Part shown: one piece after another, positions 44,543 to 64,000 of the stretch | How the letters are laid out: every line of letters begins with the position of its first letter | How positions within the stretch are numbered: the first letter of the stretch is position 1 | NCBI GenBank assembly: GCA_033558025.1 | Contig: JAUCEF010000011.1 | Location: 1,674,001 to 1,738,000 of the forward strand | DNA length: 64,000 bases | Source of the DNA: Phytophthora sp. 'mugwort' | Lineage: Eukaryota > Oomycota > Peronosporomycetes > Peronosporales > Peronosporaceae | Reading direction: 5' to 3' | Notes under the pieces: model-generated | Seen by the model: the letters and a program-made list of their open reading frames with translations, nothing else | Databases searched by the model: none | What the model was told of the DNA's origin: nothing | Program-made: the position numbers and the translations under genes

Positions 44543-45940
44543 CTAAACTCGATTTAGCTGGCAACACGGCCGACGGCAGCCTGCTTCGCAGAAATTCTGC
44601 CCACAGCGAGTAGTAGCCCATCCTTTTTTTCTGTCGTAGAGTATGCTCCTTGTAAGGCCCTCATAAACCATTTTCGTTGCTCTTTCGCTACCACTACTAT
44701 CAGCCTCACTTTCACTATCGCTGCAAAAGCTGCTGCTGATGCCATTAACATATTCACTATCCAACTCGCTCGATAACTCATCCTCGAAAACGTCCTCGTA
44801 ATCATCCGGAGGGTACTCGTCTTCATCCACAACATCTGCATGCAGGTCAGCGATGTATATTTCCACTGTTGGCAGCTTGCACCGGAAGTACTTGCTAGTT
44901 TCATTTTTTCGCCGCCATACCCATGGCAAACGTCGTTAAGAAGGCTGCAACAATGTACAACAAACCTATCTGAGAGTTGAAAACCATCATGCTGTTCGGA
45001 TGGGTGAAACTCTTCCAGTCGCGCACGACCCAGACGAAACTCCATTCGACAGCAACGCGAGCCTTGCTCAGATCGAGATTAAACTGTGTCTGAGGGTCCG
45101 TTAAGACGGCCCCAGCATATGGACAAATGAGCCAGTTTTGCAGCGGATACCCTTGGTCACCGTATATCACGTAGCTAGGATACTTTCCCAGCTCAGATTT
45201 TTTTCATCTCACTGCGCGCAGCATATAGCCGTCGTGACGCCAGCCTTCCACAGACCCATAGAGAAAATTAATCCATTCGCAATCGCGATGCTTTAAAATT
45301 TGATTTGGTGCATTTTCTTGTTGCCGCTATAGGCTTGCTTCTGGCGCCGTCTAGGGCGACAAGTCCGACGGACGGTTCCATCGATGAACCCCAGACAGTT
45401 TGTCAGGTCCCCAACTTTGGCGAAGATTGCACCCGCCGAGCGATTTTTATAGAGTTCGACCATTCGACGATCTTCGATGATCAATTCCATCTTGGATTTG
45501 ATCGTCATGTATATCTTCCGCACGAAGATGCTCACAACGGACGAAATCACTTCAGGGCTCCGCTAAAACTCACCGGCAAGATGATCGTGGCGGCAAGGAA
45601 ATGCCAGGCGTCGTAACAGCATACACAGGGCTTCTTGAGGAGGCACAGGTACGTTTTGAGCGGAGTAGATCAATGCAGGTAGCCTTAGAGCTTCTTCTAA
45701 CTCGACAATATCATGCTCGAAGAAACAAGCGCCGCCGACACAACGCAGGAGAGATCTTTTGTAACCGGAAGGGGCGAGCGGGGACTGGCACGTGAACACG
45801 TACGACTCGCGAGCATACGAACATCATCAGCTGATGTAGTGCTTCTCCCATGTCCATCCCGAGCGCTATCCCAGCAGCAAGCAGAAACACGAGCTCCTTG
45901 ATCGTGATATCCAGACGCATGATGTGAAGAGTTGTCACCT
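44543..45940 (-). pseudogene. PIF/Harbinger DDE transposase, broken
   Basis: From the right, the N-terminal piece MRLDITIKELVFLLAAGIAL (45938-45711) is followed by a frame change. Then LTNCLGFIDGTVRRTCRPRR with QKQAYSGNKKMHQIKF (45400-45293) carries the first catalytic aspartate. After stops, MIYGDQGYPLQNWLICPYAG carries the second aspartate and RVAVEWSFVWVV the glutamate (45170-44901). This is the standard Harbinger DDE order. At least two breaks make it inactive. The acidic segment 44929-44543 is unassigned. Confidence 0.72.
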
Positions 45941-46379
45941 TTCAGAATTAGTAGTAGCATGACTTTAACGTTTACTCCCCAGTGGATACTCCAGTTCGGA
46001 TTCACATTGGTGAGAGTATTATCTTAGAGCAGTGCGGGTTAGGTAAATTCTAGGATTAGCACCAACAAACTATTTTCTCGAATAGCACCACTTGGTCTCA
46101 TGAGCACGGTCTTCGGTTGCTGCATCGGAAAAACGGCTCCGCTACAGGAGGGTGAAGTCACAACGGCGAAGCCTGGCGGCTCGTTTGAATCGAGCTGACG
46201 GCGAAGCCTGGCGGCTTGTTTGAATCGAGCTGACGGCGACTCGGAGGTTGACGTGTCAGAAGAGGTAGGCATGAGGGAAACGGAGGCGTGCATGTGCCAA
46301 TAGCGATCGTGCGAAGCGTTGTAGTGGTCGTGTGTGGGTGTCACTTTTCGAGAAGTGTGGTGATGATTGATGTTTTGGC

Positions 46380-46383
46380 GCCT

Positions 46384-46441
<58 letters not shown>

Positions 46442-46452
46442 GGGTCGCGGCA
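46380..46452 (+). tRNA. tRNA-Phe (GAA), array copy 1
   Basis: Folds as a 73-base tRNA without intron: D arm GCTC-AGTTGGGA-GAGC, anticodon arm TCAGA-CTGAAGA-TCTGA with anticodon GAA (phenylalanine), T arm CCTGG-TTCGATC-CCGGG, discriminator A. The acceptor stem GCCTCGA / TCGCGGC pairs except at positions 4 and 69, where U faces C. Internal A and B boxes are normal. A TTTT Pol III terminator starts two bases after the gene. CCA is not encoded. The unit to the next copy is 557 bp. Confidence 0.95.
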
Positions 46453-46936
46453 CTTTTGCAACCTGTTGCTCTCCCCGACCCTTCCTTAACTCTTTGCAGC
46501 AACGGATGCGCGGGCTACCTCATCACACCCTGCTAGTCTTCCCTGCTTATCGGCCTGGTATGGTGCTCGATTTATCGGATCAAGTCGGTCCTTGTTGGCG
46601 TGGTTCGAGCCTCGGTCGGTCGCATTCTGATGCCGCTGTCAACGCTTAGCGCGGCTGTGTGGCGGTCCCAATAACACAACTTGGTCTCTGGAGCGTGGTG
46701 GACCGAGCTGCTGTATCCGAAAATACGGTTCGGCTTCAGAAGGGTGAAGTCACAACGGCGAAGCCTGGCGGCTCGTTTGAATCGAGCTGACGGCGACTCG
46801 GAGGTTGACGTGTCAGAAGAGGTAGGCATGAGGGAAACGGAGGCGTGCATGTGCCAATGGCGATCGTGCGAAGCGTTGTAGTGGTCGTGTGTGGGTGTCA
46901 CTTTTCGAGAAGTGTGGTGATGATTGATGTTTTGGC

Positions 46937-46940
46937 GCCT

Positions 46941-46998
<58 letters not shown>

Positions 46999-47009
46999 GG
47001 GTCGCGGCA
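46937..47009 (+). tRNA. tRNA-Phe (GAA), array copy 2
   Basis: Same 73 bases as copy 1. Unit 557 bp with GTGCCAATGG spacer form. Confidence 0.95.
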
Positions 47010-47493
47010 CTTTTGCAACCTGTTGCTCTCCCCGACCCTTCCTTAACTCTTTGCAGCAACGGATGCGCGGGCTACCTCATCACACCCTGCTAGTCTTCCC
47101 TGCTTATCGGCCTGGTATGGTGCTCGATTTATCGGATCAAGTCGGTCCTTGTTGGCGTGGTTCGAGCCTCGGTCGGTCGCATTCTGACGCCGCTGTCAAC
47201 GCTTAGCGCGGCTGTGTGGCGGTCCCAATAACACAACTTGGTCTCTGGAGCGTGGTGGACCGAGCTGCTGTATCCGAAAATACGGTTCGGCTTCAGAAGG
47301 GTGAAGTCACAACGGCGAAGCCTGGCGGCTCGTTTGAATCGAGCTGACGGCGACTCGGAGGTTGACGTGTCAGAAGAGGTAGGCATGAGGGAAACGGAGG
47401 CGTGCATGTGCCAATGGCGATCGTGCGAAGCGTTGTAGTGGTCGTGTGTGGGTGTCACTTTTCGAGAAGTGTGGTGATGATTGATGTTTTGGC

Positions 47494-47497
47494 GCCT

Positions 47498-47555
<58 letters not shown>

Positions 47556-47566
47556 GGGTCGCGGCA
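47494..47566 (+). tRNA. tRNA-Phe (GAA), array copy 3
   Basis: Unit 556 bp. The spacer carries CTCCCTGACCC, TTTGTCGG, GGAGGGTG, GTGCACGTGCCATGG and GTGGTGACG variants, the most divergent of the inner units. Confidence 0.95.
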
Positions 47567-48049
47567 CTTTTGCAACCTGTTGCTCTCCCTGACCCTTCCT
47601 TAACTCTTTGCAGCAACGGATGCGCGGGCTACCTCATCACACCCTGCTAGTCTTCCCTGCTTATCGGCCTGGTATGGTGCTCGATTTGTCGGATCAAGTC
47701 GGTCCTTGTTGGCGTGGTTCGAGCCTCGGTCGGTCGCATTCTGACGCCGCTGTCAACGCTTAGCGCGGCTGTGTGGCGGTCCCAATAACACAACTTGGTC
47801 TCTGGAGCGTGGTGGACCGAGCTGCTGTATCCGAAAATACGGTTCGGCTTCAGGAGGGTGAAGTCACAACGGCGAAGCCTGGCGGCTCGTTTGAATCGAG
47901 CTGACGGCGACTCGGAGGTTGACGTGTCAGAAGAGGTAGGCATGAGGGAAACGGAGGCGTGCACGTGCCATGGCGATCGTGCGAAGCGTTGTAGTGGTCG
48001 TGTGTGGGTGTCACTTTTCGAGAAGTGTGGTGACGATTGATGTTTTGGC

Positions 48050-48053
48050 GCCT

Positions 48054-48111
<58 letters not shown>

Positions 48112-48122
48112 GGGTCGCGGCA
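48050..48122 (+). tRNA. tRNA-Phe (GAA), array copy 4
   Basis: Unit 556 bp. The spacer has a one-base deletion (CGAGAATGTGG), shared only with copy 9. Confidence 0.95.
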
Positions 48123-48605
48123 CTTTTGCAACCTGTTGCTCTCCCCGACCCTTCCTTAACTCTTTGCAGCAACGGATGCGCGGGCTACCTCATCACACCC
48201 TGCTAGTCTTCCCTGCTTATCGGCCTGGTATGGTGCTCGATTTATCGGATCAAGTCGGTCCTTGTTGGCGTGGTTCGAGCCTCGGTCGGTCGCATTCTGA
48301 CGCCGCTGTCAACGCTTAGCGCGGCTGTGTGGCGGTCCCAATAACACAACTTGGTCTCTGGAGCGTGGTGGACCGAGCTGCTGTATCCGAAAATACGGTT
48401 CGGCTTCAGAAGGGTGAAGTCACAACGGCGAAGCCTGGCGGCTCGTTTGAATCGAGCTGACGGCGACTCGGAGGTTGACGTGTCAGAAGAGGTAGGCATG
48501 AGGGAAACGGAGGCGTGCATGTGCCAATGGCGATCGTGCGAAGCGTTGTAGTGGTCGTGTGTGGGTGTCACTTTTCGAGAATGTGGTGATGATTGATGTT
48601 TTGGC

Positions 48606-48609
48606 GCCT

Positions 48610-48667
<58 letters not shown>

Positions 48668-48678
48668 GGGTCGCGGCA
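48606..48678 (+). tRNA. tRNA-Phe (GAA), array copy 5
   Basis: Unit 557 bp, standard spacer. Confidence 0.95.
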
Positions 48679-49162
48679 CTTTTGCAACCTGTTGCTCTCC
48701 CCGACCCTTCCTTAACTCTTTGCAGCAACGGATGCGCGGGCTACCTCATCACACCCTGCTAGTCTTCCCTGCTTATCGGCCTGGTATGGTGCTCGATTTA
48801 TCGGATCAAGTCGGTCCTTGTTGGCGTGGTTCGAGCCTCGGTCGGTCGCATTCTGACGCCGCTGTCAACGCTTAGCGCGGCTGTGTGGCGGTCCCAATAA
48901 CACAACTTGGTCTCTGGAGCGTGGTGGACCGAGCTGCTGTATCCGAAAATACGGTTCGGCTTCAGAAGGGTGAAGTCACAACGGCGAAGCCTGGCGGCTC
49001 GTTTGAATCGAGCTGACGGCGACTCGGAGGTTGACGTGTCAGAAGAGGTAGGCATGAGGGAAACGGAGGCGTGCATGTGCCAATGGCGATCGTGCGAAGC
49101 GTTGTAGTGGTCGTGTGTGGGTGTCACTTTTCGAGAAGTGTGGTGATGATTGATGTTTTGGC

Positions 49163-49166
49163 GCCT

Positions 49167-49224
<58 letters not shown>

Positions 49225-49235
49225 GGGTCGCGGCA
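49163..49235 (+). tRNA. tRNA-Phe (GAA), array copy 6
   Basis: Unit 557 bp, standard spacer, not distinguishable by eye from copy 5. Confidence 0.95.
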
Positions 49236-49719
49236 CTTTTGCAACCTGTTGCTCTCCCCGACCCTTCCTTAACTCTTTGCAGCAACGGATGCGCGGGCTA
49301 CCTCATCACACCCTGCTAGTCTTCCCTGCTTATCGGCCTGGTATGGTGCTCGATTTATCGGATCAAGTCGGTCCTTGTTGGCGTGGTTCGAGCCTCGGTC
49401 GGTCGCATTCTGACGCCGCTGTCAACGCTTAGCGCGGCTGTGTGGCGGTCCCAATAACACAACTTGGTCTCTGGAGCGTGGTGGACCGAGCTGCTGTATC
49501 CGAAAATACGGTTCGGCTTCAGAAGGGTGAAGTCACAACGGCGAAGCCTGGCGGCTCGTTTGAATCGAGCTGACGGCGACTCGGAGGTTGACGTGTCAGA
49601 AGAGGTAGGCATGAGGGAAACGGAGGCGTGCATGTGCCAATGGCGATCGTGCGAAGCGTTGTAGTGGTCGTGTGTGGGTGTCACTTTTCGAGAAGTGTGG
49701 TGATGATTGATGTTTTGGC

Positions 49720-49723
49720 GCCT

Positions 49724-49781
<58 letters not shown>

Positions 49782-49792
49782 GGGTCGCGGCA
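49720..49792 (+). tRNA. tRNA-Phe (GAA), array copy 7
   Basis: Unit 557 bp, standard spacer. Confidence 0.95.
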
Positions 49793-50276
49793 CTTTTGCA
49801 ACCTGTTGCTCTCCCCGACCCTTCCTTAACTCTTTGCAGCAACGGATGCGCGGGCTACCTCATCACACCCTGCTAGTCTTCCCTGCTTATCGGCCTGGTA
49901 TGGTGCTCGATTTATCGGATCAAGTCGGTCCTTGTTGGCGTGGTTCGAGCCTCGGTCGGTCGCATTCTGACGCCGCTGTCAACGCTTAGCGCGGCTGTGT
50001 GGCGGTCCCAATAACACAACTTGGTCTCTGGAGCGTGGTGGACCGAGCTGCTGTATCCGAAAATACGGTTCGGCTTCAGAAGGGTGAAGTCACAACGGCG
50101 AAGCCTGGCGGCTCGTTTGAATCGAGCTGACGGCGACTCGGAGGTTGACGTGTCAGAAGAGGTAGGCATGAGGGAAACGGAGGCGTGCATGTGCCAATGG
50201 CGATCGTGCGAAGCGTTGTAGTGGTCGTGTGTGGGTGTCACTTTTCGAGAAGTGTGGTGATGATTGATGTTTTGGC

Positions 50277-50280
50277 GCCT

Positions 50281-50338
<58 letters not shown>

Positions 50339-50349
50339 GGGTCGCGGCA
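50277..50349 (+). tRNA. tRNA-Phe (GAA), array copy 8
   Basis: Unit 557 bp, standard spacer. Confidence 0.95.
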
Positions 50350-50833
50350 CTTTTGCAACCTGTTGCTCTCCCCGACCCTTCCTTAACTCTTTGCAGCAAC
50401 GGATGCGCGGGCTACCTCATCACACCCTGCTAGTCTTCCCTGCTTATCGGCCTGGTATGGTGCTCGATTTATCGGATCAAGTCGGTCCTTGTTGGCGTGG
50501 TTCGAGCCTCGGTCGGTCGCATTCTGACGCCGCTGTCAACGCTTAGCGCGGCTGTGTGGCGGTCCCAATAACACAACTTGGTCTCTGGAGCGTGGTGGAC
50601 CGAGCTGCTGTATCCGAAAATACGGTTCGGCTTCAGAAGGGTGAAGTCACAACGGCGAAGCCTGGCGGCTCGTTTGAATCGAGCTGACGGCGACTCGGAG
50701 GTTGACGTGTCAGAAGAGGTAGGCATGAGGGAAACGGAGGCGTGCATGTGCCAATGGCGATCGTGCGAAGCGTTGTAGTGGTCGTGTGTGGGTGTCACTT
50801 TTCGAGAAGTGTGGTGATGATTGATGTTTTGGC

Positions 50834-50837
50834 GCCT

Positions 50838-50895
<58 letters not shown>

Positions 50896-50906
50896 GGGTC
50901 GCGGCA
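50834..50906 (+). tRNA. tRNA-Phe (GAA), array copy 9
   Basis: Unit 556 bp with the CGAGAATGTGG deletion of copy 4, five units away. Confidence 0.95.
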
Positions 50907-51389
50907 CTTTTGCAACCTGTTGCTCTCCCCGACCCTTCCTTAACTCTTTGCAGCAACGGATGCGCGGGCTACCTCATCACACCCTGCTAGTCTTCCCTGC
51001 TTATCGGCCTGGTATGGTGCTCGATTTATCGGATCAAGTCGGTCCTTGTTGGCGTGGTTCGAGCCTCGGTCGGTCGCATTCTGACGCCGCTGTCAACGCT
51101 TAGCGCGGCTGTGTGGCGGTCCCAATAACACAACTTGGTCTCTGGAGCGTGGTGGACCGAGCTGCTGTATCCGAAAATACGGTTCGGCTTCAGAAGGGTG
51201 AAGTCACAACGGCGAAGCCTGGCGGCTCGTTTGAATCGAGCTGACGGCGACTCGGAGGTTGACGTGTCAGAAGAGGTAGGCATGAGGGAAACGGAGGCGT
51301 GCATGTGCCAATGGCGATCGTGCGAAGCGTTGTAGTGGTCGTGTGTGGGTGTCACTTTTCGAGAATGTGGTGATGATTGATGTTTTGGC

Positions 51390-51393
51390 GCCT

Positions 51394-51451
<58 letters not shown>

Positions 51452-51462
51452 GGGTCGCGGCA
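51390..51462 (+). tRNA. tRNA-Phe (GAA), array copy 10
   Basis: Unit 556 bp. Spacer variants GACGCGTCAG and GGAGGGTG, shared with copy 12. Confidence 0.95.
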
Positions 51463-51945
51463 CTTTTGCAACCTGTTGCTCTCCCCGACCCTTCCTTAAC
51501 TCTTTGCAGCAACGGATGCGCGGGCTACCTCATCACACCCTGCTAGTCTTCCCTGCTTATCGGCCTGGTATGGTGCTCGATTTATCGGATCAAGTCGGTC
51601 CTTGTTGGCGTGGTTCGAGCCTCGGTCGGTCGCATTCTGACGCCGCTGTCAACGCTTAGCGCGGCTGTGTGGCGGTCCCAATAACACAACTTGGTCTCTG
51701 GAGCGTGGTGGACCGAGCTGCTGTATCCGAAAATACGGTTCGGCTTCAGGAGGGTGAAGTCACAACGGCGAAGCCTGGCGGCTCGTTTGAATCGAGCTGA
51801 CGGCGACTCGGAGGTTGACGCGTCAGAAGAGGTAGGCATGAGGGAAACGGAGGCGTGCATGTGCCATGGCGATCGTGCGAAGCGTTGTAGTGGTCGTGTG
51901 TGGGTGTCACTTTTCGAGAAGTGTGGTGATGATTGATGTTTTGGC

Positions 51946-51949
51946 GCCT

Positions 51950-52007
<58 letters not shown>

Positions 52008-52018
52008 GGGTCGCGGCA
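51946..52018 (+). tRNA. tRNA-Phe (GAA), array copy 11
   Basis: Unit 592 bp: contains the 36-bp duplication around 52325-52395 and the TTAGCTCTTTT variant, as copy 13. Confidence 0.95.
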
Positions 52019-52537
52019 CTTTTGCAACCTGTTGCTCTCCCCGACCCTTCCTTAGCTCTTTTGCAGCAACGGATGCGCGGGCTACCTCATCACACCCTGC
52101 TAGTCTTCCCTGCTTATCGGCCTGGTATGGTGCTCGATTTATCGGATCAAGTCGGTCCTTGTTGGCGTGGTTCGAGCCTCGGTCGGTCGCATTCTGACGC
52201 CGCTGTCAACGCTTAGCGCGGCTGTGTGGCGGTCCCAATAACACAACTTGGTCTCTGGAGCGTGGTGGACCGAGCTGCTGTATCCGAAAATACGGTTCGG
52301 CTTCAGGAGGGTGAAGTCACAACGGCGAAGCCTGGCGGCTCGTTTGAATCGAGCTGACGGCGAAGCCTGGCGGCTGGTTTGAATCGAGCTGACGGCGACT
52401 CGGAGGTTGACGTGTCAGAAGAGGTAGGCATGAGGGAAACGGAGGCGTGCATGTGCCATGGCGATCGTGCGAAGCGTTGTAGTGGTCGTGTGTGGGTGTC
52501 ACTTTTCGAGAAGTGTGGTGATGATTGATGTTTTGGC

Positions 52538-52541
52538 GCCT

Positions 52542-52599
<58 letters not shown>

Positions 52600-52610
52600 G
52601 GGTCGCGGCA
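52538..52610 (+). tRNA. tRNA-Phe (GAA), array copy 12
   Basis: Unit 556 bp. Twin of copy 10. Confidence 0.95.
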
Positions 52611-53093
52611 CTTTTGCAACCTGTTGCTCTCCCCGACCCTTCCTTAACTCTTTGCAGCAACGGATGCGCGGGCTACCTCATCACACCCTGCTAGTCTTCC
52701 CTGCTTATCGGCCTGGTATGGTGCTCGATTTATCGGATCAAGTCGGTCCTTGTTGGCGTGGTTCGAGCCTCGGTCGGTCGCATTCTGACGCCGCTGTCAA
52801 CGCTTAGCGCGGCTGTGTGGCGGTCCCAATAACACAACTTGGTCTCTGGAGCGTGGTGGACCGAGCTGCTGTATCCGAAAATACGGTTCGGCTTCAGGAG
52901 GGTGAAGTCACAACGGCGAAGCCTGGCGGCTCGTTTGAATCGAGCTGACGGCGACTCGGAGGTTGACGCGTCAGAAGAGGTAGGCATGAGGGAAACGGAG
53001 GCGTGCATGTGCCATGGCGATCGTGCGAAGCGTTGTAGTGGTCGTGTGTGGGTGTCACTTTTCGAGAAGTGTGGTGATGATTGATGTTTTGGC

Positions 53094-53097
53094 GCCT

Positions 53098-53155
<58 letters not shown>

Positions 53156-53166
53156 GGGTCGCGGCA
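53094..53166 (+). tRNA. tRNA-Phe (GAA), array copy 13
   Basis: Unit 592 bp. Twin of copy 11. Confidence 0.95.
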
Positions 53167-53685
53167 CTTTTGCAACCTGTTGCTCTCCCCGACCCTTCCT
53201 TAGCTCTTTTGCAGCAACGGATGCGCGGGCTACCTCATCACACCCTGCTAGTCTTCCCTGCTTATCGGCCTGGTATGGTGCTCGATTTATCGGATCAAGT
53301 CGGTCCTTGTTGGCGTGGTTCGAGCCTCGGTCGGTCGCATTCTGACGCCGCTGTCAACGCTTAGCGCGGCTGTGTGGCGGTCCCAATAACACAACTTGGT
53401 CTCTGGAGCGTGGTGGACCGAGCTGCTGTATCCGAAAATACGGTTCGGCTTCAGGAGGGTGAAGTCACAACGGCGAAGCCTGGCGGCTCGTTTGAATCGA
53501 GCTGACGGCGAAGCCTGGCGGCTGGTTTGAATCGAGCTGACGGCGACTCGGAGGTTGACGTGTCAGAAGAGGTAGGCATGAGGGAAACGGAGGCGTGCAT
53601 GTGCCATGGCGATCGTGCGAAGCGTTGTAGTGGTCGTGTGTGGGTGTCACTTTTCGAGAAGTGTGGTGATGATTGATGTTTTGGC

Positions 53686-53689
53686 GCCT

Positions 53690-53747
<58 letters not shown>

Positions 53748-53758
53748 GGGTCGCGGCA
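53686..53758 (+). tRNA. tRNA-Phe (GAA), array copy 14
   Basis: Unit 557 bp, standard spacer. Confidence 0.95.
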
Positions 53759-54242
53759 CTTTTGCAACCTGTTGCTCTCCCCGACCCTTCCTTAACTCTT
53801 TGCAGCAACGGATGCGCGGGCTACCTCATCACACCCTGCTAGTCTTCCCTGCTTATCGGCCTGGTATGGTGCTCGATTTATCGGATCAAGTCGGTCCTTG
53901 TTGGCGTGGTTCGAGCCTCGGTCGGTCGCATTCTGACGCCGCTGTCAACGCTTAGCGCGGCTGTGTGGCGGTCCCAATAACACAACTTGGTCTCTGGAGC
54001 GTGGTGGACCGAGCTGCTGTATCCGAAAATACGGTTCGGCTTCAGAAGGGTGAAGTCACAACGGCGAAGCCTGGCGGCTCGTTTGAATCGAGCTGACGGC
54101 GACTCGGAGGTTGACGTGTCAGAAGAGGTAGGCATGAGGGAAACGGAGGCGTGCATGTGCCAATGGCGATCGTGCGAAGCGTTGTAGTGGTCGTGTGTGG
54201 GTGTCACTTTTCGAGAAGTGTGGTGATGATTGATGTTTTGGC

Positions 54243-54246
54243 GCCT

Positions 54247-54304
<58 letters not shown>

Positions 54305-54315
54305 GGGTCGCGGCA
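54243..54315 (+). tRNA. tRNA-Phe (GAA), array copy 15
   Basis: Unit 557 bp. The spacer has GCGTGATTCGAGCC, a unique change that alters the B-box-like motif. Confidence 0.95.
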
Positions 54316-54799
54316 CTTTTGCAACCTGTTGCTCTCCCCGACCCTTCCTTAACTCTTTGCAGCAACGGATGCGCGGGCTACCTCATCACACCCTGCTAGT
54401 CTTCCCTGCTTATCGGCCTGGTATGGTGCTCGATTTATCGGATCAAGTCGGTCCTTGTTGGCGTGATTCGAGCCTCGGTCGGTCGCATTCTGACGCCGCT
54501 GTCAACGCTTAGCGCGGCTGTGTGGCGGTCCCAATAACACAACTTGGTCTCTGGAGCGTGGTGGACCGAGCTGCTGTATCCGAAAATACGGTTCGGCTTC
54601 AGAAGGGTGAAGTCACAACGGCGAAGCCTGGCGGCTCGTTTGAATCGAGCTGACGGCGACTCGGAGGTTGACGTGTCAGAAGAGGTAGGCATGAGGGAAA
54701 CGGAGGCGTGCATGTGCCAATGGCGATCGTGCGAAGCGTTGTAGTGGTCGTGTGTGGGTGTCACTTTTCGAGAAGTGTGGTGATGATTGATGTTTTGGC

Positions 54800-54803
54800 G
54801 CCT

Positions 54804-54861
<58 letters not shown>

Positions 54862-54872
54862 GGGTCGCGGCA
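54800..54872 (+). tRNA. tRNA-Phe (GAA), array copy 16
   Basis: Unit 557 bp from a +1 (TTAGCTCTTTT) and a -1 (GTGCCATGG) change. Confidence 0.95.
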
Positions 54873-55356
54873 CTTTTGCAACCTGTTGCTCTCCCCGACC
54901 CTTCCTTAGCTCTTTTGCAGCAACGGATGCGCGGGCTACCTCATCACACCCTGCTAGTCTTCCCTGCTTATCGGCCTGGTATGGTGCTCGATTTATCGGA
55001 TCAAGTCGGTCCTTGTTGGCGTGGTTCGAGCCTCGGTCGGTCGCATTCTGACGCCGCTGTCAACGCTTAGCGCGGCTGTGTGGCGGTCCCAATAACACAA
55101 CTTGGTCTCTGGAGCGTGGTGGACCGAGCTGCTGTATCCGAAAATACGGTTCGGCTTCAGAAGGGTGAAGTCACAACGGCGAAGCCTGGCGGCTCGTTTG
55201 AATCGAGCTGACGGCGACTCGGAGGTTGACGTGTCAGAAGAGGTAGGCATGAGGGAAACGGAGGCGTGCATGTGCCATGGCGATCGTGCGAAGCGTTGTA
55301 GTGGTCGTGTGTGGGTGTCACTTTTCGAGAAGTGTGGTGATGATTGATGTTTTGGC

Positions 55357-55360
55357 GCCT

Positions 55361-55418
<58 letters not shown>

Positions 55419-55429
55419 GGGTCGCGGCA
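55357..55429 (+). tRNA. tRNA-Phe (GAA), array copy 17
   Basis: Unit 556 bp. Carries three linked changes (GAGCATGGTGG, GTTCAGCTTC, CGTTTAAATC) found again only after copy 27. Confidence 0.95.
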
Positions 55430-55912
55430 CTTTTGCAACCTGTTGCTCTCCCCGACCCTTCCTTAACTCTTTGCAGCAACGGATGCGCGGGCTACCTCAT
55501 CACACCCTGCTAGTCTTCCCTGCTTATCGGCCTGGTATGGTGCTCGATTTATCGGATCAAGTCGGTCCTTGTTGGCGTGGTTCGAGCCTCGGTCGGTCGC
55601 ATTCTGACGCCGCTGTCAACGCTTAGCGCGGCTGTGTGGCGGTCCCAATAACACAACTTGGTCTCTGGAGCATGGTGGACCGAGCTGCTGTATCCGAAAA
55701 TACGGTTCAGCTTCAGAAGGGTGAAGTCACAACGGCGAAGCCTGGCGGCTCGTTTAAATCGAGCTGACGGCGACTCGGAGGTTGACGTGTCAGAAGAGGT
55801 AGGCATGAGGGAAACGGAGGCGTGCATGTGCCATGGCGATCGTGCGAAGCGTTGTAGTGGTCGTGTGTGGGTGTCACTTTTCGAGAAGTGTGGTGATGAT
55901 TGATGTTTTGGC

Positions 55913-55916
55913 GCCT

Positions 55917-55974
<58 letters not shown>

Positions 55975-55985
55975 GGGTCGCGGCA
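55913..55985 (+). tRNA. tRNA-Phe (GAA), array copy 18
   Basis: Unit 556 bp. TTTGTCGG variant and a private GAAACGAAGG change. Confidence 0.95.
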
Positions 55986-56468
55986 CTTTTGCAACCTGTT
56001 GCTCTCCCCGACCCTTCCTTAACTCTTTGCAGCAACGGATGCGCGGGCTACCTCATCACACCCTGCTAGTCTTCCCTGCTTATCGGCCTGGTATGGTGCT
56101 CGATTTGTCGGATCAAGTCGGTCCTTGTTGGCGTGGTTCGAGCCTCGGTCGGTCGCATTCTGACGCCGCTGTCAACGCTTAGCGCGGCTGTGTGGCGGTC
56201 CCAATAACACAACTTGGTCTCTGGAGCGTGGTGGACCGAGCTGCTGTATCCGAAAATACGGTTCGGCTTCAGAAGGGTGAAGTCACAACGGCGAAGCCTG
56301 GCGGCTCGTTTGAATCGAGCTGACGGCGACTCGGAGGTTGACGTGTCAGAAGAGGTAGGCATGAGGGAAACGAAGGCGTGCATGTGCCATGGCGATCGTG
56401 CGAAGCGTTGTAGTGGTCGTGTGTGGGTGTCACTTTTCGAGAAGTGTGGTGATGATTGATGTTTTGGC

Positions 56469-56472
56469 GCCT

Positions 56473-56530
<58 letters not shown>

Positions 56531-56541
56531 GGGTCGCGGCA
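56469..56541 (+). tRNA. tRNA-Phe (GAA), array copy 19
   Basis: Unit 556 bp. CTCCCTGACCC and TTTGTCGG variants, as in copy 3. Confidence 0.95.
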
Positions 56542-57024
56542 CTTTTGCAACCTGTTGCTCTCCCTGACCCTTCCTTAACTCTTTGCAGCAACGGATGCGC
56601 GGGCTACCTCATCACACCCTGCTAGTCTTCCCTGCTTATCGGCCTGGTATGGTGCTCGATTTGTCGGATCAAGTCGGTCCTTGTTGGCGTGGTTCGAGCC
56701 TCGGTCGGTCGCATTCTGACGCCGCTGTCAACGCTTAGCGCGGCTGTGTGGCGGTCCCAATAACACAACTTGGTCTCTGGAGCGTGGTGGACCGAGCTGC
56801 TGTATCCGAAAATACGGTTCGGCTTCAGAAGGGTGAAGTCACAACGGCGAAGCCTGGCGGCTCGTTTGAATCGAGCTGACGGCGACTCGGAGGTTGACGT
56901 GTCAGAAGAGGTAGGCATGAGGGAAACGGAGGCGTGCATGTGCCATGGCGATCGTGCGAAGCGTTGTAGTGGTCGTGTGTGGGTGTCACTTTTCGAGAAG
57001 TGTGGTGATGATTGATGTTTTGGC

Positions 57025-57028
57025 GCCT

Positions 57029-57086
<58 letters not shown>

Positions 57087-57097
57087 GGGTCGCGGCA
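57025..57097 (+). tRNA. tRNA-Phe (GAA), array copy 20
   Basis: Unit 556 bp with TTTGTCGG. Confidence 0.95.
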
Positions 57098-57580
57098 CTT
57101 TTGCAACCTGTTGCTCTCCCCGACCCTTCCTTAACTCTTTGCAGCAACGGATGCGCGGGCTACCTCATCACACCCTGCTAGTCTTCCCTGCTTATCGGCC
57201 TGGTATGGTGCTCGATTTGTCGGATCAAGTCGGTCCTTGTTGGCGTGGTTCGAGCCTCGGTCGGTCGCATTCTGACGCCGCTGTCAACGCTTAGCGCGGC
57301 TGTGTGGCGGTCCCAATAACACAACTTGGTCTCTGGAGCGTGGTGGACCGAGCTGCTGTATCCGAAAATACGGTTCGGCTTCAGAAGGGTGAAGTCACAA
57401 CGGCGAAGCCTGGCGGCTCGTTTGAATCGAGCTGACGGCGACTCGGAGGTTGACGTGTCAGAAGAGGTAGGCATGAGGGAAACGGAGGCGTGCATGTGCC
57501 ATGGCGATCGTGCGAAGCGTTGTAGTGGTCGTGTGTGGGTGTCACTTTTCGAGAAGTGTGGTGATGATTGATGTTTTGGC

Positions 57581-57584
57581 GCCT

Positions 57585-57642
<58 letters not shown>

Positions 57643-57653
57643 GGGTCGCGGCA
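57581..57653 (+). tRNA. tRNA-Phe (GAA), array copy 21
   Basis: Unit 556 bp, GTGCCATGG form. Confidence 0.95.
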
Positions 57654-58136
57654 CTTTTGCAACCTGTTGCTCTCCCCGACCCTTCCTTAACTCTTTGCAG
57701 CAACGGATGCGCGGGCTACCTCATCACACCCTGCTAGTCTTCCCTGCTTATCGGCCTGGTATGGTGCTCGATTTATCGGATCAAGTCGGTCCTTGTTGGC
57801 GTGGTTCGAGCCTCGGTCGGTCGCATTCTGACGCCGCTGTCAACGCTTAGCGCGGCTGTGTGGCGGTCCCAATAACACAACTTGGTCTCTGGAGCGTGGT
57901 GGACCGAGCTGCTGTATCCGAAAATACGGTTCGGCTTCAGAAGGGTGAAGTCACAACGGCGAAGCCTGGCGGCTCGTTTGAATCGAGCTGACGGCGACTC
58001 GGAGGTTGACGTGTCAGAAGAGGTAGGCATGAGGGAAACGGAGGCGTGCATGTGCCATGGCGATCGTGCGAAGCGTTGTAGTGGTCGTGTGTGGGTGTCA
58101 CTTTTCGAGAAGTGTGGTGATGATTGATGTTTTGGC

Positions 58137-58140
58137 GCCT

Positions 58141-58198
<58 letters not shown>

Positions 58199-58209
58199 GG
58201 GTCGCGGCA
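58137..58209 (+). tRNA. tRNA-Phe (GAA), array copy 22
   Basis: Unit 557 bp. CAATTACAC and GCTCATTTG variants, shared with copy 24. Confidence 0.95.
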
Positions 58210-58693
58210 CTTTTGCAACCTGTTGCTCTCCCCGACCCTTCCTTAACTCTTTGCAGCAACGGATGCGCGGGCTACCTCATCACACCCTGCTAGTCTTCCC
58301 TGCTTATCGGCCTGGTATGGTGCTCGATTTATCGGATCAAGTCGGTCCTTGTTGGCGTGGTTCGAGCCTCGGTCGGTCGCATTCTGACGCCGCTGTCAAC
58401 GCTTAGCGCGGCTGTGTGGCGGTCCCAATTACACAACTTGGTCTCTGGAGCGTGGTGGACCGAGCTGCTGTATCCGAAAATACGGTTCGGCTTCAGAAGG
58501 GTGAAGTCACAACGGCGAAGCCTGGCGGCTCATTTGAATCGAGCTGACGGCGACTCGGAGGTTGACGTGTCAGAAGAGGTAGGCATGAGGGAAACGGAGG
58601 CGTGCATGTGCCAATGGCGATCGTGCGAAGCGTTGTAGTGGTCGTGTGTGGGTGTCACTTTTCGAGAAGTGTGGTGATGATTGATGTTTTGGC

Positions 58694-58697
58694 GCCT

Positions 58698-58755
<58 letters not shown>

Positions 58756-58766
58756 GGGTCGCGGCA
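58694..58766 (+). tRNA. tRNA-Phe (GAA), array copy 23
   Basis: Unit 557 bp. TTAGCTCTTTT plus GTGCCATGG. Twin of copy 25. Confidence 0.95.
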
Positions 58767-59250
58767 CTTTTGCAACCTGTTGCTCTCCCCGACCCTTCCT
58801 TAGCTCTTTTGCAGCAACGGATGCGCGGGCTACCTCATCACACCCTGCTAGTCTTCCCTGCTTATCGGCCTGGTATGGTGCTCGATTTATCGGATCAAGT
58901 CGGTCCTTGTTGGCGTGGTTCGAGCCTCGGTCGGTCGCATTCTGACGCCGCTGTCAACGCTTAGCGCGGCTGTGTGGCGGTCCCAATAACACAACTTGGT
59001 CTCTGGAGCGTGGTGGACCGAGCTGCTGTATCCGAAAATACGGTTCGGCTTCAGAAGGGTGAAGTCACAACGGCGAAGCCTGGCGGCTCGTTTGAATCGA
59101 GCTGACGGCGACTCGGAGGTTGACGTGTCAGAAGAGGTAGGCATGAGGGAAACGGAGGCGTGCATGTGCCATGGCGATCGTGCGAAGCGTTGTAGTGGTC
59201 GTGTGTGGGTGTCACTTTTCGAGAAGTGTGGTGATGATTGATGTTTTGGC

Positions 59251-59254
59251 GCCT

Positions 59255-59312
<58 letters not shown>

Positions 59313-59323
59313 GGGTCGCGGCA
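59251..59323 (+). tRNA. tRNA-Phe (GAA), array copy 24
   Basis: Unit 557 bp. Twin of copy 22. Confidence 0.95.
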
Positions 59324-59807
59324 CTTTTGCAACCTGTTGCTCTCCCCGACCCTTCCTTAACTCTTTGCAGCAACGGATGCGCGGGCTACCTCATCACACC
59401 CTGCTAGTCTTCCCTGCTTATCGGCCTGGTATGGTGCTCGATTTATCGGATCAAGTCGGTCCTTGTTGGCGTGGTTCGAGCCTCGGTCGGTCGCATTCTG
59501 ACGCCGCTGTCAACGCTTAGCGCGGCTGTGTGGCGGTCCCAATTACACAACTTGGTCTCTGGAGCGTGGTGGACCGAGCTGCTGTATCCGAAAATACGGT
59601 TCGGCTTCAGAAGGGTGAAGTCACAACGGCGAAGCCTGGCGGCTCATTTGAATCGAGCTGACGGCGACTCGGAGGTTGACGTGTCAGAAGAGGTAGGCAT
59701 GAGGGAAACGGAGGCGTGCATGTGCCAATGGCGATCGTGCGAAGCGTTGTAGTGGTCGTGTGTGGGTGTCACTTTTCGAGAAGTGTGGTGATGATTGATG
59801 TTTTGGC

Positions 59808-59811
59808 GCCT

Positions 59812-59869
<58 letters not shown>

Positions 59870-59880
59870 GGGTCGCGGCA
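59808..59880 (+). tRNA. tRNA-Phe (GAA), array copy 25
   Basis: Unit 557 bp. Twin of copy 23. Confidence 0.95.
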
Positions 59881-60364
59881 CTTTTGCAACCTGTTGCTCT
59901 CCCCGACCCTTCCTTAGCTCTTTTGCAGCAACGGATGCGCGGGCTACCTCATCACACCCTGCTAGTCTTCCCTGCTTATCGGCCTGGTATGGTGCTCGAT
60001 TTATCGGATCAAGTCGGTCCTTGTTGGCGTGGTTCGAGCCTCGGTCGGTCGCATTCTGACGCCGCTGTCAACGCTTAGCGCGGCTGTGTGGCGGTCCCAA
60101 TAACACAACTTGGTCTCTGGAGCGTGGTGGACCGAGCTGCTGTATCCGAAAATACGGTTCGGCTTCAGAAGGGTGAAGTCACAACGGCGAAGCCTGGCGG
60201 CTCGTTTGAATCGAGCTGACGGCGACTCGGAGGTTGACGTGTCAGAAGAGGTAGGCATGAGGGAAACGGAGGCGTGCATGTGCCATGGCGATCGTGCGAA
60301 GCGTTGTAGTGGTCGTGTGTGGGTGTCACTTTTCGAGAAGTGTGGTGATGATTGATGTTTTGGC

Positions 60365-60368
60365 GCCT

Positions 60369-60426
<58 letters not shown>

Positions 60427-60437
60427 GGGTCGCGGCA
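60365..60437 (+). tRNA. tRNA-Phe (GAA), array copy 26
   Basis: Unit 557 bp. TTTGTCGG together with GCTCATTTG and GTGCCAATGG. Confidence 0.95.
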
Positions 60438-60921
60438 CTTTTGCAACCTGTTGCTCTCCCCGACCCTTCCTTAACTCTTTGCAGCAACGGATGCGCGGGC
60501 TACCTCATCACACCCTGCTAGTCTTCCCTGCTTATCGGCCTGGTATGGTGCTCGATTTGTCGGATCAAGTCGGTCCTTGTTGGCGTGGTTCGAGCCTCGG
60601 TCGGTCGCATTCTGACGCCGCTGTCAACGCTTAGCGCGGCTGTGTGGCGGTCCCAATAACACAACTTGGTCTCTGGAGCGTGGTGGACCGAGCTGCTGTA
60701 TCCGAAAATACGGTTCGGCTTCAGAAGGGTGAAGTCACAACGGCGAAGCCTGGCGGCTCATTTGAATCGAGCTGACGGCGACTCGGAGGTTGACGTGTCA
60801 GAAGAGGTAGGCATGAGGGAAACGGAGGCGTGCATGTGCCAATGGCGATCGTGCGAAGCGTTGTAGTGGTCGTGTGTGGGTGTCACTTTTCGAGAAGTGT
60901 GGTGATGATTGATGTTTTGGC

Positions 60922-60925
60922 GCCT

Positions 60926-60983
<58 letters not shown>

Positions 60984-60994
60984 GGGTCGCGGCA
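60922..60994 (+). tRNA. tRNA-Phe (GAA), array copy 27
   Basis: Unit 556 bp. Same three linked changes as copy 17, plus TTTGTCGG and a private CTCATCGCACC. Confidence 0.95.
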
Positions 60995-61477
60995 CTTTTG
61001 CAACCTGTTGCTCTCCCCGACCCTTCCTTAACTCTTTGCAGCAACGGATGCGCGGGCTACCTCATCGCACCCTGCTAGTCTTCCCTGCTTATCGGCCTGG
61101 TATGGTGCTCGATTTGTCGGATCAAGTCGGTCCTTGTTGGCGTGGTTCGAGCCTCGGTCGGTCGCATTCTGACGCCGCTGTCAACGCTTAGCGCGGCTGT
61201 GTGGCGGTCCCAATAACACAACTTGGTCTCTGGAGCATGGTGGACCGAGCTGCTGTATCCGAAAATACGGTTCAGCTTCAGAAGGGTGAAGTCACAACGG
61301 CGAAGCCTGGCGGCTCGTTTAAATCGAGCTGACGGCGACTCGGAGGTTGACGTGTCAGAAGAGGTAGGCATGAGGGAAACGGAGGCGTGCATGTGCCATG
61401 GCGATCGTGCGAAGCGTTGTAGTGGTCGTGTGTGGGTGTCACTTTTCGAGAAGTGTGGTGATGATTGATGTTTTGGC

Positions 61478-61481
61478 GCCT

Positions 61482-61539
<58 letters not shown>

Positions 61540-61550
61540 GGGTCGCGGCA
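61478..61550 (+). tRNA. tRNA-Phe (GAA), array copy 28
   Basis: Unit 557 bp with TTAGCTCTTTT. Confidence 0.95.
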
Positions 61551-62034
61551 CTTTTGCAACCTGTTGCTCTCCCCGACCCTTCCTTAGCTCTTTTGCAGCA
61601 ACGGATGCGCGGGCTACCTCATCACACCCTGCTAGTCTTCCCTGCTTATCGGCCTGGTATGGTGCTCGATTTATCGGATCAAGTCGGTCCTTGTTGGCGT
61701 GGTTCGAGCCTCGGTCGGTCGCATTCTGACGCCGCTGTCAACGCTTAGCGCGGCTGTGTGGCGGTCCCAATAACACAACTTGGTCTCTGGAGCGTGGTGG
61801 ACCGAGCTGCTGTATCCGAAAATACGGTTCGGCTTCAGAAGGGTGAAGTCACAACGGCGAAGCCTGGCGGCTCGTTTGAATCGAGCTGACGGCGACTCGG
61901 AGGTTGACGTGTCAGAAGAGGTAGGCATGAGGGAAACGGAGGCGTGCATGTGCCATGGCGATCGTGCGAAGCGTTGTAGTGGTCGTGTGTGGGTGTCACT
62001 TTTCGAGAAGTGTGGTGATGATTGATGTTTTGGC

Positions 62035-62038
62035 GCCT

Positions 62039-62096
<58 letters not shown>

Positions 62097-62107
62097 GGGT
62101 CGCGGCA
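62035..62107 (+). tRNA. tRNA-Phe (GAA), array copy 29
   Basis: Unit 556 bp with GCTCATTTG and GTGCCATGG. Confidence 0.95.
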
Positions 62108-62590
62108 CTTTTGCAACCTGTTGCTCTCCCCGACCCTTCCTTAACTCTTTGCAGCAACGGATGCGCGGGCTACCTCATCACACCCTGCTAGTCTTCCCTG
62201 CTTATCGGCCTGGTATGGTGCTCGATTTATCGGATCAAGTCGGTCCTTGTTGGCGTGGTTCGAGCCTCGGTCGGTCGCATTCTGACGCCGCTGTCAACGC
62301 TTAGCGCGGCTGTGTGGCGGTCCCAATAACACAACTTGGTCTCTGGAGCGTGGTGGACCGAGCTGCTGTATCCGAAAATACGGTTCGGCTTCAGAAGGGT
62401 GAAGTCACAACGGCGAAGCCTGGCGGCTCATTTGAATCGAGCTGACGGCGACTCGGAGGTTGACGTGTCAGAAGAGGTAGGCATGAGGGAAACGGAGGCG
62501 TGCATGTGCCATGGCGATCGTGCGAAGCGTTGTAGTGGTCGTGTGTGGGTGTCACTTTTCGAGAAGTGTGGTGATGATTGATGTTTTGGC

Positions 62591-62594
62591 GCCT

Positions 62595-62652
<58 letters not shown>

Positions 62653-62663
62653 GGGTCGCGGCA
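62591..62663 (+). tRNA. tRNA-Phe (GAA), array copy 30
   Basis: Unit 556 bp. Indistinguishable by eye from copy 29. Confidence 0.95.
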
Positions 62664-63146
62664 CTTTTGCAACCTGTTGCTCTCCCCGACCCTTCCTTAA
62701 CTCTTTGCAGCAACGGATGCGCGGGCTACCTCATCACACCCTGCTAGTCTTCCCTGCTTATCGGCCTGGTATGGTGCTCGATTTATCGGATCAAGTCGGT
62801 CCTTGTTGGCGTGGTTCGAGCCTCGGTCGGTCGCATTCTGACGCCGCTGTCAACGCTTAGCGCGGCTGTGTGGCGGTCCCAATAACACAACTTGGTCTCT
62901 GGAGCGTGGTGGACCGAGCTGCTGTATCCGAAAATACGGTTCGGCTTCAGAAGGGTGAAGTCACAACGGCGAAGCCTGGCGGCTCATTTGAATCGAGCTG
63001 ACGGCGACTCGGAGGTTGACGTGTCAGAAGAGGTAGGCATGAGGGAAACGGAGGCGTGCATGTGCCATGGCGATCGTGCGAAGCGTTGTAGTGGTCGTGT
63101 GTGGGTGTCACTTTTCGAGAAGTGTGGTGATGATTGATGTTTTGGC

Positions 63147-63150
63147 GCCT

Positions 63151-63208
<58 letters not shown>

Positions 63209-63219
63209 GGGTCGCGGCA
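63147..63219 (+). tRNA. tRNA-Phe (GAA), array copy 31
   Basis: Unit 557 bp with TTAGCTCTTTT and GCTCATTTG. Confidence 0.95.
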
Positions 63220-63703
63220 CTTTTGCAACCTGTTGCTCTCCCCGACCCTTCCTTAGCTCTTTTGCAGCAACGGATGCGCGGGCTACCTCATCACACCCTG
63301 CTAGTCTTCCCTGCTTATCGGCCTGGTATGGTGCTCGATTTATCGGATCAAGTCGGTCCTTGTTGGCGTGGTTCGAGCCTCGGTCGGTCGCATTCTGACG
63401 CCGCTGTCAACGCTTAGCGCGGCTGTGTGGCGGTCCCAATAACACAACTTGGTCTCTGGAGCGTGGTGGACCGAGCTGCTGTATCCGAAAATACGGTTCG
63501 GCTTCAGAAGGGTGAAGTCACAACGGCGAAGCCTGGCGGCTCATTTGAATCGAGCTGACGGCGACTCGGAGGTTGACGTGTCAGAAGAGGTAGGCATGAG
63601 GGAAACGGAGGCGTGCATGTGCCATGGCGATCGTGCGAAGCGTTGTAGTGGTCGTGTGTGGGTGTCACTTTTCGAGAAGTGTGGTGATGATTGATGTTTT
63701 GGC

Positions 63704-63707
63704 GCCT

Positions 63708-63765
<58 letters not shown>

Positions 63766-63776
63766 GGGTCGCGGCA
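63704..63776 (+). tRNA. tRNA-Phe (GAA), array copy 32
   Basis: Last copy in the window. Its spacer is cut by the window end at GGTCCCAATAACA. Confidence 0.95.
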
Positions 63777-64000
63777 CTTTTGCAACCTGTTGCTCTCCCC
63801 GACCCTTCCTTAACTCTTTGCAGCAACGGATGCGCGGGCTACCTCATCACACCCTGCTAGTCTTCCCTGCTTATCGGCCTGGTATGGTGCTCGATTTATC
63901 GGATCAAGTCGGTCCTTGTTGGCGTGGTTCGAGCCTCGGTCGGTCGCATTCTGACGCCGCTGTCAACGCTTAGCGCGGCTGTGTGGCGGTCCCAATAACA

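Follow-up and report, generated by a model that had tools for sequence, protein, structure and literature searches.

The locus considered here raises the question of why a single transfer RNA (tRNA) gene should be repeated head to tail many times over, and whether such repeats are genes, mobile elements or a structural component of the chromosome. It lies in Phytophthora sp. 'mugwort' (assembly GCA_033558025.1; 86.26 Mb in 154 contigs), on contig JAUCEF010000011.1 (C11 below), where the 64-kb stretch that was analysed (C11:1674001-1738000, the window) ends within a tandem array of tRNA-Phe(GAA) genes. This array is read here, with a probability of roughly 0.86, as the working nuclear tRNA-Phe(GAA) gene family of this Phytophthora species, held in one tandem array of 81 genes. 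Each unit would be transcribed alone, as each gene has its own internal RNA polymerase III (Pol III) promoter (the A and B boxes) and its own TTTT.

ARAGORN called 32 tRNA-Phe(GAA) genes in the window, all on the plus strand between 46380 and 63777, and no other tRNA. These genes are letter-identical (32/32), the Rfam tRNA model gives every one of them 62.7 bits, and nothing besides them was reported in the window by Rfam at its gathering score. The 31 start-to-start units measured in the window are 556 or 557 bp long, the exceptions being two units of 592 bp in which the extra length is a duplicated 35-bp piece. Past the window the tandem run extends to C11:1764978, making 80 uninterrupted copies, and its 79 measurable units comprise 38 of 557 bp, 38 of 556 bp, two of 592 bp and one of 555 bp. 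Copy 81 (C11:1772531-1772604) is separated from copy 80 by a 7,547-bp insertion which, judged by its protein domains, is a retrotransposon without long terminal repeats (non-LTR), that is, a long interspersed nuclear element (LINE). The array is thus confirmed as real, and an earlier note on the window was right to describe a homogenised head-to-tail tRNA-Phe array that continues beyond the window's end. Its 'at least 32 copies' of 557 bp holds as regards tandem copies, but the total is 81 and units of 557 and 556 bp are equally frequent; the start that it gave, 46088, is close to the point, ~46081, at which array-like sequence begins in mid-spacer.

A cloverleaf was called by ARAGORN in all 81 genes, and A- and B-box sequences of the usual kind are present in each. 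Among the 80 tandem copies 79 are identical, and one (C11:1741601-1741674, outside the window) carries the anticodon AAA in place of GAA. The gene is followed directly by TTTT in 81/81 copies, the 12-base stretch made up of the last gene base and the trailer is the same in all 81, and the 20-base leader is identical in 79 of them. The minimum-energy fold of the gene was no better than that of shuffled sequences (z = 0.45) and is uninformative either way.

To this can be added the near-exclusivity of the locus. A 35-base pattern from the anticodon/T-arm core of the gene, with up to three mismatches allowed, gave 81 matches in the genome, all of them in the array on C11, and the reversed-pattern control gave none, so that chance is excluded. 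A D-arm/anticodon-arm pattern gave 82 matches, namely the 81 array genes and one 5'-half fragment on C2 (C2:1493232-1493306; L017 5232-5306). This fragment comprises nucleotides 1 to ~41 with one mismatch and two leader bases, stands between 17-bp direct repeats, and looks like a retroposed tRNA half. A third, looser pattern gave 289 matches, which were ordered by mismatches and then by contig, and those listed cover matches with up to two mismatches, not those with three. Among those listed, the 81 array genes come first, followed by a different GAA-bearing sequence, which matches with two mismatches on C15, on C19-C23 and on other short contigs; mitochondrial-type tRNAs are present on many of these contigs, and at up to two mismatches nothing else was found on C1-C14 or C16-C18. 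A mitochondrial-type tRNA cluster (Asn-Ser-Met-Pro-Met-Gly) was observed on many short contigs (C15, C19-C21 and more up to C115), in 23 scanned loci (L018-L040) of the 30 returned by a whole-genome Rfam search, and dozens of mitochondrial pieces appear to be included in the assembly. Going by these searches, the array is very probably the only, and complete, nuclear tRNA-Phe family. As Phe codons must be read and this is very probably the sole locus, its genes should be functional. A sole nuclear locus is to be read as the gene family itself; the satellite reading was therefore rejected, and the earlier description of the array as a 'pure tRNA-Phe satellite' is misleading.

The tRNA-Phe array is one of several tRNA arrays in this genome, as in Phytophthora infestans. 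Asn(GTT) has 173 genome matches, all forward, and those listed (about the first hundred) all lie on C5 at a spacing of 726-746 bp, save for one 7.6-kb gap that holds a LINE copy. There are 25 matches for Thr(TGT), two on C13 and 23 on C17 (3.722-3.762 Mb), the latter spaced by 1,130-1,245 bp except for two gaps of 7,576 bp and a last one of 1,501 bp. Further regular series were seen among the listed matches on C1 (Gly(CCC)-like, by eye) and on C5 (560-bp step), using a pattern with 1,186 matches against seven for its control, which is a partial count.

Some observations weigh against a working gene family. A U4-C69 mismatch is present in the acceptor stem of every tRNA-Phe copy (window 46380-46452 and all others) and might make the tRNA less functional. 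In the Asn array, the intact gene at L097 shows by eye a C-T mismatch in the anticodon stem, and this mismatch recurs in the ARAGORN drawing of the Asn site rejoined without its LINE copy. A single mismatch can therefore be present throughout a whole array, and mismatches may be fixed across arrays. It is also possible that a diverged second nuclear tRNA-Phe gene is among the three-mismatch matches of the looser pattern. Lastly, purifying selection was considered from the variation of gene and spacer and had to be rejected as an argument, because the 24 variable positions at which the consensus has a base (1/74 in the gene and 23/482 in the spacer) give a difference that is not significant (Fisher p = 0.23).

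The 79 units fall into 32 distinct sequences, with a mean of 2.8 substitutions per pair, and the order of these variants reveals that many-unit blocks have been duplicated. Units u15-u31 recur as u46-u60 with 14 of 15 variant types in order, against a maximum of 10 in 1000 shuffles, and the longest run of identical units at an offset of at least five is eight units, where the maximum in 2000 shuffles was four and none reached eight. A third block copy, u63-u76, was not established, as its nine and eight units in order are within reach of the shuffles, and there was no clear excess of identical neighbouring units (7/78, reached by 175/2000 shuffles). The block-wise recurrence agrees with unequal exchange in which many units are duplicated at a time, and such exchange between repeats may account for the growth, shrinkage and uniformity of the array. 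Copy number would in that case probably drift over a wide range and not be set by demand.

Alternatively, copy number could be set by selection for tRNA-Phe supply, as might be thought from the presence of 81 intact genes with terminators. However, the genome has 173 matches for Asn(GTT) and 81 for Phe at similar codon use (Phe 109 and Asn 112 of 3114 codons in four open reading frames (ORFs) of the window, which run from stop to stop and give a small, rough sample). Gene number in P. infestans, too, correlates no more than modestly with codon use (R = 0.41), and the Pro and Ser families that have expanded most there are for infrequent codons (PMC9584435). Selection on dosage is on this evidence an unlikely explanation of the array's size.

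It could also be that the array is kept for its clustered Pol III/TFIIIC sites, which would act as a chromatin boundary or as a chromosome-organising element. A human 7.3-kb tRNA tandem repeat at 1q23.3 has been implicated as a boundary, which serves as a precedent only (PMC4041453, from the part of that paper available), and nuclear organisation is raised as a question by the authors of the P. infestans study (PMC9584435). The surroundings of the array might also be taken to suit a boundary. To the left are genes for a kinase and a dihydrolipoamide acetyltransferase; the best relatives of the latter are Phytophthora proteins, as expected of a Phytophthora host, at 90% in P. oleae and at 89% in a P. 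capsici record ('Phyca11'). To the right is the LINE and then, 17-41 kb further, two Copia-type reverse transcriptase stretches (RVT_2 in Pfam; C11:1789474-1790208 and 1813187-1813921), which are 99% alike and in opposite orientation. Yet this Copia-type element is not clustered in the manner of a centromere marker, with nine matches in the genome and two here, and the idea that the array neighbours a centromere marked by a Copia cluster was rejected for this reason. The array also lies near the middle of C11 (1.72-1.77 of 3.84 Mb) and not at a contig end. The array may have a boundary or structural role, but such a role finds no support in the present data, and as the explanation for the array we regard it as very unlikely.

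Short interspersed nuclear elements (SINEs) are dispersed, and their promoter head drives transcription of the body. The repeats might be SINE-like, that is, non-autonomous elements with a tRNA head that have been mis-annotated as genes, as has been proposed for clusters in Peronospora effusa, which differ strongly between isolates and whose units include ORFs, according to the sections of that report available (PMC11540230). In the present array, with its unit of 557 bp, the tRNA part likewise hardly varies and many units have an antisense ORF, and the C2 half-gene between its direct repeats indicates that tRNA-Phe RNA can be retroposed, all of which would agree with such elements. Against this, the tRNA head occurs 81 times at one locus and once more as the C2 half, and so is not dispersed; a search with the 557-bp unit found only the array locus and the C2 fragment (among the best 12 candidates, which is not a full census of the spacer). 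No dispersed copies with target duplications were found in these searches, and the TTTT that comes at once after each gene is a predicted early terminator, so a tRNA-head transcript through the body is not predicted. The three genome pattern searches (the looser one up to two mismatches among the matches listed) found no other nuclear tRNA-Phe. That the repeats are SINE-like is accordingly highly improbable. Least probable of all is an assembly artefact, in which a short array was made too long or two haplotypes were joined one after the other: a haplotype join could imitate the recurrence of u15-u31 as u46-u60, but the two recurring blocks are not identical, non-array flanks are reached on both sides of the array within a single contig, and the copy numbers of representative families in P. 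infestans agree with read depth (PMC9584435).

The part of this gene family that falls in the window occupies 46081..64000 on the plus strand, as defined by the ARAGORN genes and by unit comparison, and its 32 genes are 74 bp each (the first at 46380-46453, the last at 63704-63777). At the left edge there is a partial spacer that begins mid-unit (46081..46379, plus strand), with 85% and then 99% identity to the unit, and this contains a duplicated 35-bp piece (46163-46239). The 35-bp tandem duplications of the long units are at 52322..52398 in unit 11 (592 bp) and, as a second case, at 53470-53546 in unit 13, all on the plus strand. A representative spacer of 483 bp (46454..46936, plus strand) opens with the Pol III terminator-like TTTT directly 3' of the gene (46454..46457). 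The spacer yielded only tRNA in Rfam, both at the gathering score across the window and when 45500-48200 was scanned at laxer settings. The possibility of a second RNA gene there was considered and rejected, since the only candidate was the tRNA's own weak shadow on the antisense strand, at 22.4 bits where the cut-off is 65.7. In many units the tRNA gene is crossed by an antisense ORF of 156 codons, for example at window 46575-47042 on the minus strand, and this ORF is a likely source of spurious protein predictions. Pfam returned nothing for the ORF to the right of copy 81 (L012:4689-5171) or for that at window 44557-45078 (minus strand), in which a resemblance to Copia or transposase had been seen by eye.

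The LINE insertion (C11:1764979-1772525; L011 6979-10000 and L012 1-4525) separates the spacer of copy 80 from copy 81, and is flanked on both sides by the 13-bp target duplication TTGGCGCCTCGAT. On the minus strand it has three open frames (683, 514 and 935 amino acids), and the Pfam domains Exo_endo_phos (E 1.1e-5) and RVT_1 (E 4.9e-23) were detected in different frames. The duplication spans gene positions up to 8 together with five bases upstream, and copy 81 is therefore still complete as a tRNA gene, although its leader is new. Inspection by eye also picked out, inside the LINE and near its 3' end (L011 7290-7370; C11 ~1765290-1765370), a tRNA-like stretch whose motifs resemble A and B boxes.

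Related copies of the LINE were examined at both ends, with 40 matches scored of 175 candidates for the 3' end and 40 of 62 for the 5' end. When the flanks of 14 full-length copies were joined at the target duplication, six empty sites had a tRNA gene and eight did not. The genes at these sites are Phe, Asn, Leu(AAG), Gly(CCC) and, in two copies, Thr(TGT). Both Thr copies are full elements in the Thr(TGT) array (C17:3722763-3761918). They share their flanks and stand 22.9 kb from one another, which would suit the duplication of a block carrying the element; they were counted as one event, which leaves 5/13 independent empty sites with a tRNA gene. Rfam applied to 39 5'-flanks placed a tRNA at the junction in L098, L099, L107, L108, L115 and L117, although the match in L115 (26.1 bits) is below the gathering score of 29, and a further tRNA in L113 is ~70 bases off the junction; the second batch, 19 of the 39, had none. 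By eye, we take L115 to be Asp and L117 to be Arg. In 39 3'-flanks Rfam found a tRNA in five, these being L066 and four copies whose Thr flanks are almost identical. Pieces of tRNA recognised by eye only, in L071, L075/L105 and L121, were left uncounted, and the other flank of L071 (L103) has no tRNA. The copy at C6:4105823-4113297 (L075, L105) has tRNA-Arg-like 5' parts on both sides in opposite orientation, again by eye, and this is not a simple target duplication.

At least seven independent sites of 39 are therefore in tRNA genes (Phe, Asn, Leu, Gly, Thr, Asp and Arg). For the chance model random landing was assumed, and the tRNA share of the genome was set at no more than 9,329 x 75 bases, or 0.81%, the 9,329 being first-look genome-wide Rfam candidates that were used as an upper bound only. 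At this density 7/39 has a p of about 3e-8. The copy in the array is a biased case, since the family was found from it; without it the count is 6/38 (p about 6e-7), and with Asp also removed it is 5/38 (p about 1.4e-5). Insertions of this family in or at tRNA genes are thus above chance, in a count made on one LINE family, and open chromatin alone could also favour such landing. When matches are ranked by their similarity to the array copy, the sites in tRNA genes all fall in the top 16, so it is the more similar copies, presumably the younger ones, that are found in tRNA genes. The first-strand junctions, placed by hand, are at nucleotide ~8 in Phe, 23 in Asn, 11 in Leu, 10/11 on the other strand in Gly and 8/9 on the other strand in Thr; the exact nucleotide varies within the first third of the gene, always inside or adjacent to the A-box region. 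The family does not keep to a single fixed position in a single tRNA type, as several types are represented. A built-in preference for the A-box/D-arm region of many kinds of tRNA, with tandem arrays as a harbour, has in our judgement an even chance of being correct. An element harboured in this way would land in one repeat among dozens, do little harm, and be copied along when blocks of the array duplicate.

Tandem tRNA arrays are already known in oomycetes, and the closest comparison is with P. infestans, where 7,519 tRNA genes have been placed on chromosomes and 3,537 on unplaced contigs, ~64% of them in tandem arrays of the same gene (PMC9584435). The rarity that the earlier note had attached to such arrays does not survive this comparison; its own proviso, that the array might be a routine feature already described in this genus, largely applies. 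One P. infestans example has 271 tRNA-Cys genes in a 513-nt unit, about two-thirds of the families are on one chromosome, and growth is ascribed to unequal crossing-over (PMC9584435). As there, the array described here has a single isoacceptor, arranged head to tail in units of ~0.5 kb with near-identical copies and grouped variants, and the family is on one chromosome (81/81 on C11). The present case differs in that it concerns another species and Phe, which is not among the isoacceptor examples in the text of PMC9584435, and in that the unit-by-unit order of variants and the near-exclusivity of the locus have been worked out for it. In a literature search covering open-licence papers, neither the tRNA-Phe array of this species nor a multi-tRNA LINE family was found described.

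The clusters of P. effusa, which hold ~99.6% of more than 6,000 annotated tRNA genes, come from the same organism family and are alike in that the tRNA part is fully conserved, there are sub-blocks of recent expansion and each cluster is confined to one place; their units are 0.7 kb and their authors read them as SINE-like (PMC11540230, in the sections available). Oomycete clusters have been read in two ways, one paper taking them for amplified tRNA genes (PMC9584435) and another for SINE-like elements (PMC11540230). For the tRNA-Phe family, the sole-locus status of the array and the immediate terminators favour real genes, the array being apparently the only source of an indispensable tRNA. 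A simple test for other families would be whether any copy of the isoacceptor exists outside its array. An essential gene family can, it appears, live wholly in one exchange-prone repeat, where an acceptor-stem mismatch is then possible in every copy.

In Entamoeba almost all tRNA genes are in tandem arrays with mostly uniform units, and according to the available part of that source these hold up to five tRNA genes, some with 5S; the genes of E. histolytica and E. dispar are separated by short tandem repeats (PMC2652664). The tRNA-Phe array, in contrast, has one gene per unit, and the only short repeat found is the 35-bp duplication in two window units and at the left edge. The human 1q23.3 repeat is alike in having tandem tRNA-bearing units, but its unit is 7.3 kb, it has a CTCF site and 9-43 copies, and there is boundary evidence for it (PMC4041453, as far as available).

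The less familiar part of the locus is the multi-tRNA LINE. Dictyostelium TRE elements also use tRNA genes, but as described in the accessible part of that work they land beside and not inside them (PMC5006619). The tRNA-specific NeSL/LIN elements (PMC4640811) and Dada DNA transposons (PMC3706591) each use one tRNA type, with few exceptions in the parts of those papers available. The LINE described here is unlike both, with an Exo_endo_phos-type endonuclease domain and several tRNA types among its sites. If its preference is real, this non-LTR element would recognise tRNA genes as a class and insert inside the gene, tied neither to one tRNA type nor to a fixed distance.

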